NCBI GenBank assembly: GCA_944384235.1
Contig: CALWSP010000006.1
Coordinates: 124,001-188,000 of the forward strand
DNA from: an uncultured Clostridia bacterium
Lineage (GTDB): Bacteria; Bacillota; Clostridia; Lachnospirales; CAG-274
Length of the DNA stretch: 64,000 nucleotides
Reading direction: 5' to 3'
Shown: in pieces, positions 56,277 to 63,871 of the stretch
How the letters are laid out: the number at the start of each line of letters is the position of its first letter
Numbering within the stretch: the stretch's first letter is position 1
Made by a program: the position numbers and the translations under genes
Notes under the pieces: generated by a model
Told to the model about the DNA's origin: nothing
Seen by the model: the letters and a program-made list of their open reading frames with translations, nothing else
Database searches by the model: none

Positions 56277-57230
56277 ATGAAATCCTGTATTTTAAAAAAT
56301 AATTTAGGCATTTACCATATTTATAGTAAAAATAAATGTATCTTTGTTTCAACCTATAAAAATAATTCTTTTTCCAATAGCGAGTTAATTGCAGAAAATG
56401 CTTTAAATAATTTTTCTGTTCTAAAAAGTGATATAAATAACAATATAGCAATTTTATATCAAGACTTTAACAACAACATATTCTTAAAATATAATAATAA
56501 AGAAGCAAGAAAAGTGTTTTCTTCAACTACAAGCCCACAAAGTTTCCACATTGACGGCATAATTTCTAACAACAACCTTAAACTAATTTACAGCAAAGAA
56601 AATTTTAACCAGTCCTACTTAACAGAACAACACTTATTACCCTCAAAACAATGGTCAAACCCCATAATTTTAGACAATTATTTAAAAAAAAATAACTTCA
56701 CAAAACTTCTTCCAATAAAAAACAACTATATTTTGTTTTACATAAAAAAAGCCCCTGAATATCAAATTGGATATAGAGAAATTTCAAAAGAGAATATAAG
56801 CTCTTTTAAATTAATATATTCAAGTTTAAATGAAATAATAGACTATTGTGTGGCTTTTACAGAAAATGTTATACATATAGTGTCAATAATTAAATCTAAT
56901 AGAAGTTATTCCCTAGTTTATATAAAAAAAGATAGCTCTGGCATATCAAAAGAAAAAACTCTATATATAGGCTATTTAAAACTTTGCCATATTTCCATAG
57001 AAAATAGTAAAATAAATATAATTTTTTCCACAAACAATTCAAATAAAATAATATCTTCTTACGATATGGGAACTTCCTTTAAAAAAATAACTAACCTTGA
57101 AAATAATATTTTGCAAAAAAATATATTCATAGACTACTCTAACCAAACAGAAGATAAATATGTTCTTTCAGAAATATTAACTGACAATTTGTATAACCCT
57201 AAACACTGTTTGCTCTTTAATAACTACTAA
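56277..57230 (+). CDS. hypothetical protein, Asn/Lys/Ile-rich, propeller-like repeats
   Basis: 317 aa, no signal peptide or membrane helix. The composition is strongly biased to Asn, Lys, Ile and Ser. Repeated strands of the type NNIAILYQDFNNNIFLKYNN, NLKLIYSKENFNQSYLTEQ and KINIIFSTNNSNKIISSYD at roughly 45-residue spacing suggest a beta-propeller. No family is recognised. GGGGAGATTTT precedes the ATG. It is divergent from the murC unit and lies 217 bp before the first pilin-like gene; a link to the pilins is possible but unsupported. Confidence 0.7.
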   Translation: MKSCILKNNLGIYHIYSKNKCIFVSTYKNNSFSNSELIAENALNNFSVLKSDINNNIAILYQDFNNNIFLKYNNKEARKVFSSTTSPQSFHIDGIISNNNLKLIYSKENFNQSYLTEQHLLPSKQWSNPIILDNYLKKNNFTKLLPIKNNYILFYIKKAPEYQIGYREISKENISSFKLIYSSLNEIIDYCVAFTENVIHIVSIIKSNRSYSLVYIKKDSSGISKEKTLYIGYLKLCHISIENSKINIIFSTNNSNKIISSYDMGTSFKKITNLENNILQKNIFIDYSNQTEDKYVLSEILTDNLYNPKHCLLFNNY

Positions 57231-57447: not shown

Positions 57448-58506
57448 ATGAAAAATAAAATACTAAATAATAAAGGTTTTACATTAATAGAAATCATCGT
57501 AGTTCTTGTAATTATATCAATTTTAATGACAATTGCTATGCCATCTATCTTTGGCTACACACAAAAAGGTCAAGAAACTGCCGCCATATCTGAATGTCGC
57601 TCTGTTGTAACAGCTGCTATTCAAGAATTAAGCGATAAATATGTTAAAACTGGCAATAGAGAATTTGATTCTGATGTTATAAATAAATCCCTTGCTCTTT
57701 CAAATGTTGAAGGCTATGTTCAAAACCAAAGAATTGGTAGCGAAGAACTAATTGAATATTTAGAATACGTTCACCCAAGTGGAATTGTAGCAATTTATGA
57801 AAACGGAAAATATAGAATTGCTGGCGATGGAGAAACAGCAGTAACACCTACGCCTCCAACTCCTAGCGAGCCAGAAAACCCAACTCCTCCACCTACCCCT
57901 AGCGAGCCAGAAACTTCTGCTCCTCCTGTAACAGAAGAACAACCTACTGTCACAGAACCAACAACTGAAGTAACTTCTAGCGTAGCAATAGTTGGTGAAG
58001 ATGATAATTTCTACATAATACCTGAAAACAAAAGTTGGGAGGAAATGAAAGCTACAATCATATCTTATGCAAATGGAGATACAACTAAACCTACACACCT
58101 ACCTTTTATGAAAGGTGACCTTTTCTATGATAACGGCAAGCTTTATCTCTTTGTTTATGATAATAGCCATTCTGTAACTAATGACCACTATCAAAACGGC
58201 GTATTTAACCAAAACACTAGCTTAACTGAGTTTTTAGAAAAATCTGGTGCTAACAAAAATAACTATGTAATAATTGATAAAAACTCAAAACTTTATAATC
58301 GCTCTGATTACCCAGATTCAAATGATATGCCTTGGGATAGCGACCCTAGCTATTCTCCTGATAAAAACCCTATATTATATAAAAACAACTTAGTTTATGA
58401 CAATGGAAAACTTTATATAATAATTGCAGAAAAAGTTCAAATGAAACAATTTCACGAAAGCTGGGCAAGAATGGAAGTTCCAACTGATGTAATATCTGGT
58501 GCATAA
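57448..58506 (+). CDS. type IV pilin-like protein with Pro-rich linker, copy 1
   Basis: 352 aa. The prepilin leader MKNKILNNKG precedes the class III cleavage site G/FTLIEIIVVLVII, with Glu at +5 intact and a hydrophobic helix to about 32. A pilin-type domain (about 33-130) with QKGQETAAISECRSVVTAA follows, then a proline/Thr-rich linker (about 133-178), and a C-terminal domain carrying two YDNGKLY motifs (near 228 and 317) that resembles small carbohydrate-binding modules. Minor/adhesive pilin or pseudopilin. No pilus motor genes are in the window. GAGGGTGATACT precedes the ATG. Confidence 0.85.
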   Translation: MKNKILNNKGFTLIEIIVVLVIISILMTIAMPSIFGYTQKGQETAAISECRSVVTAAIQELSDKYVKTGNREFDSDVINKSLALSNVEGYVQNQRIGSEELIEYLEYVHPSGIVAIYENGKYRIAGDGETAVTPTPPTPSEPENPTPPPTPSEPETSAPPVTEEQPTVTEPTTEVTSSVAIVGEDDNFYIIPENKSWEEMKATIISYANGDTTKPTHLPFMKGDLFYDNGKLYLFVYDNSHSVTNDHYQNGVFNQNTSLTEFLEKSGANKNNYVIIDKNSKLYNRSDYPDSNDMPWDSDPSYSPDKNPILYKNNLVYDNGKLYIIIAEKVQMKQFHESWARMEVPTDVISGA

Positions 58507-58752: not shown

Positions 58753-59940
58753 ATGAAAGAAAGGTGTTTTAATAACAAAGGTTTTACTTTAATTGAAATT
58801 ATTGTAGTTCTTGTTATTATGGCAATTTTAATGTCAATTGCTATGCCATCTGTCTTTGGCTACACACAAAAAGGCCAAGAAACGGCTGCAACTTCTGAAT
58901 GTCGCTCAGTTGTAACAGCTGCTATTCAAGAACTAAGCGATAAATATATTAGAACAGGCAATAGAGAATTTGATTCTGATGTTATAAATAAAGCTCTTAA
59001 ACTTTCAAATGTTGAAGGCTACATTCAAAACCAAAAAATTGGTAGCGATGAATTAATTGAATATTTAGAATATGTCCACCCAAGCGGAATTGTTGTAGTT
59101 TATGAAAACGGTTCTTATAGAGTTGCTGGTGATGGAGAAGTAACAATAACTCCTAACCCTGGTAATCCAGACAATTCTAAACCTAATGAGCCAGATGACT
59201 CCACTCCTGATACTCCAGGTGATTCTAAGCCTGATGTGCCAGATAACTCCACTCCTGATACTCCAGATAATACAAACCCTGACACACCAGGAGATGATGT
59301 TGACACACCAGAAGATAACAACCCTAATCCAGCTCCTAACGAGCCAGAAACTTCTGCTCCTACACCACCTGTTGTAGAAGAAAAACCAACTGTTACAGAA
59401 ACTACAACTGAAATAACATCAAGTGTTGTAATTTTTGATGAAGATAAGAACGACCCATTCATTATTCTTCCAAATAAAAGCTGGCAAGAAATTAAAGATA
59501 CAATAATACACGGAACAGAAAATAACTGTGGCCCTTGGTATCTTCCATTAAAAATGGATTATGTTTTCTATGATAACGGAAAATTGTTTTTAATTGTATA
59601 TGAATGGGGTATATCAAGCGACCACTATAATAACGGAGTGTTTGATAAAAATACTAGTTTAGAAGATTTCTTAGATAAATCTGGTGCTCCTGACACAAAC
59701 TATTCTATCATTGATAAAAACACAAAGCTTTACAACCGTGCTAACTACCCTTCATCAGAAAGCATTGATTGGAATGAAACTAACGAAAAAATTAACCCAA
59801 CTTTATATAAAGACGATTTATTATACGATAACGGTAAACTTTATATAATAATAACTCCAACAGTTCAAATGAAACAAGCTCAAGAAGGTTGGGCAAGACG
59901 AGAACTACCTATAAAAGTTATTACAAACGATGATATTTAA
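58753..59940 (+). CDS. type IV pilin-like protein with Pro-rich linker, copy 2
   Basis: 395 aa, paralogue of the preceding gene. The leader MKERCFNNKG and G/FTLIEIIVVLVIM are followed by an almost identical pilin domain (about 130 residues); the linker is much longer (about 133-215) and consists of D/N/S/T-P-D repeats such as DSTPDTPGDSKPDVPDN. The C-terminal domain again has two YDNGKL(F/Y) motifs. The near-identical N-terminus with variable linker and tip suggests duplication followed by diversification of the exposed part. GGAGGTAAATACT precedes the ATG. Confidence 0.85.
   Translation: MKERCFNNKGFTLIEIIVVLVIMAILMSIAMPSVFGYTQKGQETAATSECRSVVTAAIQELSDKYIRTGNREFDSDVINKALKLSNVEGYIQNQKIGSDELIEYLEYVHPSGIVVVYENGSYRVAGDGEVTITPNPGNPDNSKPNEPDDSTPDTPGDSKPDVPDNSTPDTPDNTNPDTPGDDVDTPEDNNPNPAPNEPETSAPTPPVVEEKPTVTETTTEITSSVVIFDEDKNDPFIILPNKSWQEIKDTIIHGTENNCGPWYLPLKMDYVFYDNGKLFLIVYEWGISSDHYNNGVFDKNTSLEDFLDKSGAPDTNYSIIDKNTKLYNRANYPSSESIDWNETNEKINPTLYKDDLLYDNGKLYIIITPTVQMKQAQEGWARRELPIKVITNDDI
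59191..59266 (+). repeat. 48-bp-period repeat in the pilin linker
   Basis: A 28-base segment starting ccagatgactccactcctg at 59191 recurs at 59239 with one difference (g to a). The period is 48 bp, so 16 residues, and the frame is kept. Further diverged units follow to about 59300. Slippage here would change linker length without a frameshift. Confidence 0.75.
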
Positions 59941-61255: not shown

Positions 61256-62167
61256 TTACAAGCAAACCTTTGCAAGTGCCTCTGCAATAACCTCCACGCT
61301 GTTTAAAGCTTCTTTGTAAGTGTTTGTTTGAGCACCAAGCTCAATTAACATACTCTTGTCCTTCATATGTAAAGAATACCTGTAAGCATTTATATATATT
61401 TTTCTAGCTATACTGCTGTTAAAGTTAGTAATAGCACACTGCATTTGAAAACTAAGTGCTAAATTTGTTTTTAAATAAGGGTTTTCTAAACCACTTATGT
61501 TAATTAACTTTCCATCATCCCACTTTTTGCATATTCCGTTAAATAACATAATTTTTGCATAGTTTTTTCCGTCAATGTTTGTAACTAACTTTAAATTTTC
61601 ATTCACTCCATCTCTGTGTAAGTCTATAACCACCTCAATTGATGGGTTTTCCTTTATAACTTGCGAAATAACAACCTCCGCTCTCTCATACGCCCCATCT
61701 CTTTGCAATCTTCCATCAACAATGTCAAACTTGTCTGTAATATGTAAACACTCTACCCCATATTTGTCCTCTAAAATGCTTTTTAAATACTCTCCTGCAC
61801 CAATAACACCTTCGCTAGTGTCCTTGCTGTCAGCATACATTTCGCTTCCGTGCGTATGAAATATTAATATTTTAGGTCCATTTCCACTATTTTTTATATG
61901 TAAATTTTCCTTTTCAAATTTGTCTAAATTAAATAAACTCTCCTCCATACCAGTTTTTTTATCTATTGCATAAAATGCCTTTTTTAATTTTTCTTTATCT
62001 TTTAAATTAATTTTAACCTCTTGCTCGTAGTTGTTTCCAACCATTAAAGTAGCACTTCCCATTTCAAATAAAGAAACCTTTCCAAGAGTAACATTTTTTC
62101 TATTGTATGTTACAACTGTAAATGAAATTATCATAACACAAAACATAAAACACATTACTCTTTTCAT
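61256..62167 (-). CDS. spoIIP: stage II sporulation protein P (SpoIIP)
   Basis: SpoIIP is the peptidoglycan amidase/endopeptidase of the DMP machine that drives engulfment during sporulation. About 303 aa. An N-terminal membrane anchor (VMCFMFCVMIISFTVVTY) is followed by a linker and the SpoIIP domain with ILIFHTHGSEMY near 104, VVIDLHRDGV near 182 and a C-terminal LIELGAQTN near 281, which hold the zinc and catalytic residues. The ATG at 62167 follows AAGGAGATTTTAT. It marks the organism as sporulating or descended from a sporulator. Confidence 0.9.
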   Translation of the reverse strand: MKRVMCFMFCVMIISFTVVTYNRKNVTLGKVSLFEMGSATLMVGNNYEQEVKINLKDKEKLKKAFYAIDKKTGMEESLFNLDKFEKENLHIKNSGNGPKILIFHTHGSEMYADSKDTSEGVIGAGEYLKSILEDKYGVECLHITDKFDIVDGRLQRDGAYERAEVVISQVIKENPSIEVVIDLHRDGVNENLKLVTNIDGKNYAKIMLFNGICKKWDDGKLINISGLENPYLKTNLALSFQMQCAITNFNSSIARKIYINAYRYSLHMKDKSMLIELGAQTNTYKEALNSVEVIAEALAKVCL

Positions 62168-62247
62168 ATAAAATCTCCTTGCTAACATTTATTTATTATT
62201 ATATTTTAAATATTAAAAATAATTACTATTTTTTAATAAAAAAATAC

Positions 62248-62276
62248 TTGCTTTTTTTTCGAAAAAAAGTTAAAAT
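62248..62276 (+). promoter_or_regulatory. promoter of the c-di-GMP riboswitch transcript
   Basis: TTGCTT (62248-62253), 17 bp, TAAAAT (62271-62276). The spacer is itself an inverted repeat of T and A runs around TCGA. Transcription would begin near 62283, about 16 nt before the aptamer. Confidence 0.62.
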
Positions 62277-62298
62277 AAATTTATCAATAAATATATGT

Positions 62299-62369
62299 GG
62301 CAAACTAATTGAAAAGTTAGGACGCAAAGCCAAGGGTCTAACCTCGTATGAGTAAGACAGCCGGTTGCC
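62299..62369 (+). promoter_or_regulatory. cyclic di-GMP-I (GEMM-I) riboswitch aptamer
   Basis: P1 is GGCAA (62299-62303) with TTGCC (62365-62369). One arm is CTAATT-GAAA-AGTTAG, carrying the GAAA tetraloop; the joining core is GGACGCAAAGCC; the second arm is GTCT...AGAC ending in AGCCGG. The core and tetraloop match the GEMM-I consensus that binds c-di-GMP. An intrinsic terminator follows 57 nt downstream. Confidence 0.92.
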
Positions 62370-62425
62370 TGTTAAAAACAGATAAACTTTGTTTCCCCCA
62401 GATTGTCTTAGATATTATCAAAGCT

Positions 62426-62459
62426 AGTTGCCATAAGGCAACTTTTTGTTTTTTTTGGG
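62426..62459 (+). terminator. riboswitch expression-platform terminator
   Basis: agttgcc (62426-62432), loop ataa, ggcaact (62437-62443), then a T-rich tail. The 5' arm GTTGCC is identical to the 3' strand of aptamer P1 (62364-62369), so GGCAAC (62437-62442) can pair with either one. This gives mutually exclusive terminator and antiterminator structures. Confidence 0.85.
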
Positions 62460-62548
62460 CAACGAAGCAATATGCTTCATTTCCCCCAATCCGGTTAAGG
62501 TAAATATAAAGGAAATTATATTTATTGATTTTAATACAGCTATTGCTG

Positions 62549-62590
62549 AAAAAAGTCCTCGTTCCCCCTTTCTTTACGGAGGGCTTTTTT
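62549..62590 (+). terminator. second terminator, before the symporter promoter
   Basis: aaaaaagtcctc (62549-62560) pairs with gagggctttttt (62579-62590), 12 bp with one G-U and an 18-nt loop. It lies upstream of the symporter promoter and should stop transcription that passed the riboswitch terminator. Confidence 0.7.
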
Positions 62591-62609: not shown

Positions 62610-62638
62610 TTGAAATATAAATAATAATATAGTATAAT
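62610..62638 (+). promoter_or_regulatory. promoter of the DAACS symporter gene
   Basis: TTGAAA (62610-62615), 17 bp, TATAAT (62633-62638), 37 bp before the ATG. Confidence 0.76.
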
Positions 62639-62674: not shown

Positions 62675-63871
62675 ATGAAAAATCATATGAGTTTATTATT
62701 TAAACTAATTTTAGGCATCTTAGCTGGTATTGTGCTTGGCTCAATAAGTGCCTTTGTAGGCGATAACATACTATACATAGGTTTTGTTCGCCTCTTTGTA
62801 ACTTTCACAAATCTGTTTTCAACTTTCCTAAGCTTCATAATTCCTTTAATAATTATTAGCTTTGTTGCTGTTGGTATGGCAGATTTAGGTAAAAGAGCAA
62901 ATAAACTTTTTGCCATAACTTTAGGCCTTGCTTATGTTTCAACAATCCTTGCAGGCTTTATATCTTTTTTTGTAGGAAAATTAACTCTAAATAACGTAGT
63001 AACTACAATAAATAACAGCGAAATAGTAGAAAAAACTTTTGAGCCAATATTCACAATACAAGTTGACCCAGTTGTTTCTGTTATGACAGCTTTAGTTCTT
63101 GCTTTCCTCCTAGGCATAGGAATGGCAAATATAAAAGGAACTGGCCTACTTAATGGTATGAGAGATTTACAAAAAATAGTAGAAAATACTATTGCAAAAG
63201 TTTTAATTCCTCTAATACCTTATTACATCGCTGGTCTTTTCTGTAAAATCGGTGCTGAAGGAAAACTAGTTTCAACAATTAAAATGTTTGTAACTTTATT
63301 CTTCCTTATTGTTGTTTTACAACTATTATATATTCTTATCCAATATATAATAGCAAGCATTGTATGTAAGAAAAACCACTTAAAGAGCATAAAAAATGCC
63401 ATTCCAGCATATTTTACAGCCCTTGGAACACAGTCTTCTGCTTCTACCATTCCTGTTGCTTTAGAATGTGCTAGAAAAAATGGAATAAAAGAGGAAGTTG
63501 CAGACTTTTGCATACCACTTTGTGCAACTATTCACCTTGCAGGTGACACAATCTGCCTTGTTTTAGGCTCTATGGGAATTATGGTATCTCAAGGAATAGA
63601 ACCTACAATAACTATGTTCTTTTCTTACATACTTCTTCTTGGTGTAACAATGGTTGCCGCTCCAGGCGTTCCAGGTGGTGGAGTTATGGCAGCACTTGGT
63701 CTTATTGAAAGCATTTTAGGCTTTACAAACCCAATGAAACAGTTAATAATTTCTTTACATCTTTCACAAGATAGCTTTGGAACAGCAACAAACATTATGG
63801 GTGACCAAGCTCTTGCTCTTATTGTAGATAAATTTGATGATTTTACTTCAGCAAAAGAAAATAAAAACTAA
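62675..63871 (+). CDS. dicarboxylate/amino acid:cation symporter (DAACS family)
   Basis: 398 aa, about 8 membrane helices plus two re-entrant hairpins. FLSFIIPLIIISFVAVGMADL near 48 (normally LIxPLVF), YFTALGTQSSASTIPVALECA near 248 (the serine-rich hairpin 1) and FGTATNIMGDQALALIVD near 367 (the NMDG-type motif, here NIMGD) fit the glutamate/dicarboxylate symporters. Substrate is not certain. AAAGGGGTTTT precedes the ATG. The stop overlaps the stop of the convergent deacetylase gene by four bases. Confidence 0.9.
   Translation: MKNHMSLLFKLILGILAGIVLGSISAFVGDNILYIGFVRLFVTFTNLFSTFLSFIIPLIIISFVAVGMADLGKRANKLFAITLGLAYVSTILAGFISFFVGKLTLNNVVTTINNSEIVEKTFEPIFTIQVDPVVSVMTALVLAFLLGIGMANIKGTGLLNGMRDLQKIVENTIAKVLIPLIPYYIAGLFCKIGAEGKLVSTIKMFVTLFFLIVVLQLLYILIQYIIASIVCKKNHLKSIKNAIPAYFTALGTQSSASTIPVALECARKNGIKEEVADFCIPLCATIHLAGDTICLVLGSMGIMVSQGIEPTITMFFSYILLLGVTMVAAPGVPGGGVMAALGLIESILGFTNPMKQLIISLHLSQDSFGTATNIMGDQALALIVDKFDDFTSAKENKN

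Follow-up and report, generated by a model that had tools for sequence, protein, structure and literature searches.

A candidate c-di-GMP-gated, LhrC-like small RNA gene headed by a c-di-GMP-I riboswitch in an uncultured gut Clostridia species

In the genome of an uncultured gut Clostridia species, a c-di-GMP-I (GEMM-I) riboswitch with no protein gene of its own forms the 5′ end of what is probably a stand-alone small RNA (sRNA) gene, a candidate c-di-GMP-gated, LhrC-like anti-Shine-Dalgarno regulator; we put this reading at roughly 0.6. Judged by its sequence, the locus is its own transcription unit made of an intact aptamer, a first terminator (T1), a non-coding body and a second terminator (T2), and it is conserved within the genus and keeps no reading frame. 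Folding predicts an OFF switch, in which the ligand would give a short RNA and low c-di-GMP a long one.

Results

A riboswitch-headed RNA with two terminators

The locus lies near the end of the window, the whole 64-kb stretch of DNA that was analysed, and comprises the following features together with its neighbours.

61256-62188, minus strand: spoIIP gene, divergent upstream neighbour (PF07454, E 4e-50)
62248-62276, plus strand: weak promoter-like site TTGCTT-17-TAAAAT, 5′ of the aptamer, read from the sequence and under the scanner threshold
62289-62372, plus strand: c-di-GMP-I (GEMM-I) riboswitch aptamer (RF01051, 72.5 bits, full model 1-87)
62385-62400, plus strand: C-motif 1, AACTTTGTTTCCCCCA, which reads AACTTTGTTTCCCCA in genus-mates
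62425-62457, plus strand: terminator T1, AGTTGCC-ATAA-GGCAACT and T tract (terminator scan, folding)
62455-62463, plus strand: TTGGGCAAC, invariant in four genomes (comparison, folding)
62465-62492, plus strand: small hairpin GAAGC/GCTTC, then C-motif 2, ATTTCCCCCAATCC (folding, motif search, alignment)
62500-62525, plus strand: hairpin with an AAGGAAA loop (folding)
62549-62590, plus strand: terminator T2, a 12-bp stem whose loop GTTCCCCCTTTCTTTACG contains C-motif 3 (scan, folding)
62610-62638, plus strand: independent, sigma-A-like symporter promoter TTGAAA-17-TATAAT (11/12 matches, scan)
62675-63871, plus strand: sodium:dicarboxylate symporter (SDF) gene, downstream neighbour outside the RNA (PF00375, E 3e-76)

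The first-pass annotation had called a GEMM-I aptamer at 62299-62369, which lies inside the RF01051 match; the covariance model covered the whole aptamer at more than its gathering score of 35 (E 2.7e-12), and this was the sole match detected in the 1.75-Mb genome, in which 13 GGDEF matches, which could supply the ligand, exceeded the Pfam cut-off. A c-di-GMP-II search gave no match, its controls being equally silent. The terminator proposed at 62426 was recovered by the terminator scan as the hairpin AGTTGCCATAAGGCAACT with the T tract TTTTTGTTTTTTTT (62426-62443), and folding agreed with the two hairpins and the 12-bp terminator proposed behind it. The T2 stem, AAAAAAGTCCTC/GAGGGCTTTTTT, closes an 18-nt loop, and the terminator scanner lists for it just the inner 6-bp hairpin (62566-62583). 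T1 and T2 are ~110 nt apart with two further hairpins between them, and this stretch folds better than 200 of 200 shuffles (z −3.45). The separate symporter promoter announced at 62610 was found as a near-consensus site, and that announced at 62248 is present but weak, fitting the consensus at 8/12 positions by eye and being unlisted by the scanner.

The earlier view that no credible frame lies between the terminators agrees with the ORF list, in which the longest frames of the gap (51-58 aa, TTG or ATG start) are unconserved and have no evident ribosome-binding site. On the minus strand, the RNA is crossed by frames of 20-35 aa only, without further support. A minus-strand match to U11 snRNA (26.4 bits against a cut-off of 39) was judged a chance match. 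The window also encodes, some 4 kb 5′ of the riboswitch RNA, two tandem prepilin-like proteins with an N_methyl motif (57448-58506 and 58753-59940), both with long proline-rich middle parts.

Three exposed C-rich motifs

TTCCCCC occurs four times on the two strands of the window, and three of these copies (62393, 62481 and 62562) fall within ~175 nt of this RNA, in a riboswitch loop, in the single strand after T1 and in the T2 loop. A further 240-nt stretch with three C5 runs was found on neither strand of the window, nor in 87 kb elsewhere in the genome searched on both strands; C-richness was gauged against this genome background, because dinucleotide shuffles preserve CC steps and are a weak test of it. 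In partition-function folds, the CCCC of C-motif 1 was unpaired with a probability of mostly 0.85-1.0, C-motif 2 with 0.1 to 0.9 depending on the state of the RNA, and C-motif 3 in the T2 loop with about 1. The predicted folds therefore display the arrangement typical of LhrC, with three redundant CU-rich single-stranded motifs of which the terminator loop holds one. Over the plus strand of the whole window, C5 and G5 runs are strongly asymmetric, with 16 CCCCC runs and no GGGGG.

The AGGAAA loop, previously suggested as a seed or an anti-ribosome-binding decoy, is real and has a GGA-type loop as its counterpart in relatives, but it is unlikely to be the main element, because the C-rich motifs are repeated and exposed and there is no CsrA to read a GGA loop.

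A predicted OFF switch

When the RNA up to T1 was folded freely, T1 had a predicted probability of 0.48 and an antiterminator, formed by the T1 5′ arm and the aptamer 5′ strand GGCAAACT (GGCAAACU as RNA), one of 0.52; enforcing the aptamer shifted these values to 1.00 and 0. The fold of the expression platform thus depends on the aptamer in these predictions, suggesting a short RNA with ligand and a long RNA without it. In the proposed mechanism, c-di-GMP would hold the aptamer and make GGCAAACU unavailable to the T1 5′ arm, so that T1 would form and stop transcription after about 150-170 nt; the resulting short RNA would hold one C-motif. When c-di-GMP is low, the antiterminator could form and transcription would proceed to T2, giving a long RNA of ~300 nt that would show all three C-motifs, the first in a loop, the second in a single strand and the third in the loop of the terminator. 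An OFF logic of this kind has been reported for class I switches of Clostridioides difficile. The exposed UUUCCCCC motifs would then pair with G-rich Shine-Dalgarno or 5′-UTR sequences and block the translation of several mRNAs without Hfq, and low c-di-GMP would therefore mean repression of those mRNAs.

A second, post-transcriptional effect of the ligand is also possible. The element TTGGGCAAC shows complementarity to GGTTGCC, the 3′ strand of the aptamer, and partial complementarity to the C-motifs. In predicted folds of the full-length RNA, the pairing of UUGGGCAAC with the aptamer strand GGUUGCC had a probability of 0.52 in the free RNA and 0 with the aptamer enforced, and aptamer formation buried C-motif 2 further, such that the ligand might act through both changes on the finished transcript.

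Candidate partners and targets

Profile searches found no Hfq in the source genome, with controls that gave the expected signal, and no CsrA (PF02599), with controls that did so in three genomes, leaving a CsrA sponge without its protein. With both proteins missing, an Hfq-independent mode of action would be required. Across 53 start regions of the window, the best predicted duplexes of the C-motifs were no better than those of shuffled motifs; the best for motif 3 reached −19.5 kcal/mol (at 56277) against a null median of −18.7. The pattern GAAAGGGG(N3-14)ATG occurred at 16 sites, among them that of the ORF at 56277, against 4 for reversed controls, Shine-Dalgarno sequences being purine-rich in any case. 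The canonical Shine-Dalgarno sequences of the window are AGGAGG-like, and GGGG occurs in only 2 of 55 start regions; few mRNAs would therefore match CCCCC, and the targets may be few in number. Among the candidates in the window the best, to be taken as a lead only, is the ORF at 56277, of unassigned function, in which AAAGAAAGGGG makes an 11-nt match to the T2 loop and which adjoins two prepilin-like genes downstream.

The same RNA at another locus in genus-mates

To find relatives, 48 family and 392 order genomes were searched for c-di-GMP-I riboswitches and the downstream DNA was read. A homologous RNA stood behind the riboswitch in three genus-mates (G001, G002 and G006, with loci L084, L085 and L087), all rabbit-gut MAGs of uncultured Clostridia, and a wider contig scan for orthologs returned the same three MAGs and six unrelated matches only. 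BLASTN of the gap against the 48 family genomes gave only AT-rich chance matches, because the RNA body diverges too far; the orthologs were found via the aptamer instead.

In the genus-mates the RNA is adjoined by an acyltransferase gene and another membrane-protein-like gene, and neither spoIIP nor the symporter is present at the locus, so the RNA is an independent unit conserved irrespective of its neighbours. Within the post-aptamer part that was compared, every indel among the three mates was 1 nt long, so no reading frame is kept; the predicted transcript contains no conserved ORF downstream of the aptamer, and a terminator precedes the next gene. A protein gene in the relatives' gap, which would have spoken against an RNA product, was thus not found in these three, and the suggestion of a c-di-GMP-regulated small RNA gained support from the homologous gene-less RNA at a different locus.

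Islands common to the four genomes are the aptamer, AAACTTTGTTTCCCC, TTGGGCAAC, TTCC(C/T)CC and a hairpin with a GGA loop, and in all four a terminator whose loop is CU-rich ends the RNA; in the four-genome consensus fold nine pairs were changed on both sides. In the genus-mates, the position of the AAGGAAA loop is taken by the GGA-loop hairpin TATAC-GGATTAAA-GTATA, and C-motif 2 aligns with CTTCCTCCCAG. As a terminator, T1 is poor or missing in these relatives, where the hairpin at its position has no good T tract, so the genus has not conserved the transcription switch itself. There the post-transcriptional effect may be the main one, and the ligand might free or mask a C-motif of the finished RNA via the invariant UUGGGCAAC. 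L084 and L085 carry ~40-nt tandem repeats (AGTTTTTGGATTTCATTCCAAAAAGTCTG...) beyond the RNA, at 300-480 nt past the aptamer.

RNAs of similar style in other genera

Outside this genus, the family's c-di-GMP-I riboswitches precede RNAs of unrelated sequence and similar style, and CU-rich loops recur independently behind them in genera g4, g8 and g2. The g8 RNA, present in five species (L053, L089, L092, L094 and L097) 100-150 nt after the aptamer, has a terminator loop, UUCCUCCU or GTTCCTCCTA, that is near-invariant on a covarying stem: (G/A)TTCCTCCTA is kept while the stem changes from GCAGCC/GGCTGC to GCAGTC/GACTGC. The same RNA carries CTCTCCTTT and ATATCCCCCC in the five species. The loop (G/A)TTCCTCCTA resembles the anti-Shine-Dalgarno sequence of 16S rRNA, and the g8 RNA gives the better anti-Shine-Dalgarno match.

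A hairpin, ATATCC-TCCCCC-TATT-GGATAT, is shared by g4, g2 and one g8 genome, with up to three exact copies per RNA. A pattern search of the 48 family genomes placed it (AUAUCC-UCCCCC-UAUU-GGAUAU in the RNA) exclusively behind these riboswitches, except for one contig-end copy that seems to continue a split g4 locus. The 392 order genomes added two matches, one in G071 and a weak variant in G104. The G071 hairpin, ATATCCTCCCCCCTATTGGATAT (L212:1501-1523), is intergenic and accompanied by promoter-like and terminator-like sequence without a riboswitch, and it is possibly the same sRNA module without its switch. Three matches in viral contigs, with no c-di-GMP-I riboswitch nearby, were set aside as chance matches.

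In genus g7, the orphan RNAs (L031, L034-L037, L039 and L043) contain repeated hairpins, up to three per RNA and about 120-290 nt after the aptamer, whose UUGGGG loops are G-rich rather than C-rich. Genes resembling hrcA and grpE, named from translations by eye, are among the g7 neighbours.

At least two CU-boxes were counted in 11 of the 21 loci that the analyst had labelled as orphan and in none of the 18 riboswitch loci labelled as coding (Fisher 2e-4, a value that overstates independence because related loci were counted as independent); the label of the g2 locus L055 is uncertain because a gene lies ~180 nt downstream. Secreted proteins of one protein family (MKK...AATVNAADLRSAI...) are regularly encoded behind c-di-GMP-I riboswitches of this bacterial family (L038, L040-L042, L044, L046-L050, L052 and L056).

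Alternative explanations

The C-rich loops here, like the G-rich loops in g7, could titrate an RNA-binding protein or a G-rich RNA instead of blocking Shine-Dalgarno sites, as Rli55 titrates EutV. Rli55/EutX is a precedent for a riboswitch-controlled sponge (PMC8079631), the UUGGGG loops occupy the same position in the g7 RNAs and a GGA-loop hairpin is present; with neither CsrA nor Hfq in the genome and no candidate partner found, we consider this unlikely.

Slightly less probable still is a c-di-GMP reservoir like Bdellovibrio merRNA, in which the RNA would bind and buffer c-di-GMP and its remainder would be stabilising structure. One strong aptamer on a gene-less c-di-GMP-I RNA, as in merRNA (PMC3627812), is what such a reservoir would look like, but it leaves unexplained both the T1/antiterminator logic and the recurrence of CU-rich loops on unrelated sequences in other genera, and the promoter looks weak whereas a sponge needs very high expression.

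The symporter gene lies 303 nt downstream on the same strand, and Bc1 of Bacillus thuringiensis has a long expression platform with two terminators behind a c-di-GMP-I aptamer (PMC11218506), so the riboswitch and its dual terminator might govern read-through into the SDF gene. The near-consensus promoter that lies behind T2 and ahead of the gene, the presence of the RNA without the symporter in genus-mates and the want of a close symporter relative in those sampled (best 28% identity) make a leader function improbable.

Decay of a riboswitch that lost its protein gene, leaving the gap as junk, had been the other earlier proposal and found no support: no gene is present and other riboswitches of the genus control secreted proteins, yet the aptamer scores over its full length, islands are conserved in four genomes, the position and loops of T2 are conserved and the alternative pairing is intact, and we regard decay as very unlikely. 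A small unrecognised peptide encoded between T1 and T2 can practically be dismissed, as the open frames of 51-58 aa that exist there show no evident ribosome-binding site and are broken by single-base indels between close relatives.

Discussion

Taking these observations together, we favour a c-di-GMP-gated anti-Shine-Dalgarno sRNA. A broader proposal is more tentative, and we give it somewhat less than an even chance: in one Clostridia family, c-di-GMP-I riboswitches may repeatedly and independently drive Hfq-independent sRNAs with arrays of C-rich (g1, g4, g8 and g2) or G-rich (g7) loops, an undescribed layer in which a second messenger would directly set a multi-target anti-Shine-Dalgarno regulator. 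Riboswitches for c-di-GMP have chiefly been described as leaders that act locally, each on a single operon; if the reading favoured here is right, c-di-GMP would also act at a distance via an RNA that base-pairs through several redundant seeds, creating a riboswitch regulon, and at least some gene-less c-di-GMP-I riboswitches would be accounted for. The comparative set of four CU-rich genera and one G-rich genus makes heterologous reporter tests feasible without culturing.

Gene-less c-di-GMP riboswitch RNAs (merRNA, the Clostridioides difficile orphan and RCd11/RCd12) and a riboswitch-gated trans-acting ncRNA (Rli55) are already known. A search of openly licensed papers turned up no c-di-GMP-gated sRNA that is built from redundant CU-rich loops and recurs on different sequences within a family. 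An Rfam scan of the locus named no sRNA family. In Actinobacteria, the structured 6C/B11 sRNA pairs ribosome-binding sites with its C-rich loops (PMC10470900); it belongs to another phylum and has no riboswitch, and the Rfam 6C model gave no match up to E 1 at the window locus or up to 0.5 at nine relatives' loci.

In C. difficile, c-di-GMP-I riboswitches precede the antitoxin RNAs RCd11 and RCd12, and an orphan lies between CD2517 and CD2517.1 (PMC11477304). These cases share with our locus a class I riboswitch with an RNA product (RCd11/RCd12) or no known product (the CD2517 orphan) and the OFF logic (PMC11477304); RCd11/RCd12 differ in being cis-encoded prophage antitoxins, and for the strand opposite the locus RNA the ORF list gives the 20-35-aa frames noted above and no evident toxin gene. 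The merRNA of Bdellovibrio, a massively expressed 445-nt RNA proposed to store c-di-GMP, likewise has a c-di-GMP riboswitch within an ncRNA and no conserved ORF downstream, and C-rich loops are unreported for it in the portion of that source drawn on here (PMC3627812). In Rli55/EutX, an adenosylcobalamin (B12) riboswitch precedes an ncRNA whose ANTAR element sequesters EutV (PMC8079631): there, too, a ligand OFF-switch decides whether the ncRNA is short and truncated or long and active, but the ligand is B12 and the active part is the ANTAR element rather than C-rich loops.

The layout seen here is shared by LhrC of Listeria monocytogenes, which blocks the Shine-Dalgarno sites of several mRNAs, binding its targets without Hfq, through three redundant CU-rich UCCC sites, one in a stem-loop, another in a single strand and the third in the loop of the terminator (PMC4132741, PMC8079631). 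LhrC differs in being about 110 nt long, multicopy, controlled by LisRK and without a riboswitch, and the likeness is one of layout, not of family membership; both RNAs combine the three-site CU-rich arrangement with a low-GC Gram-positive host.
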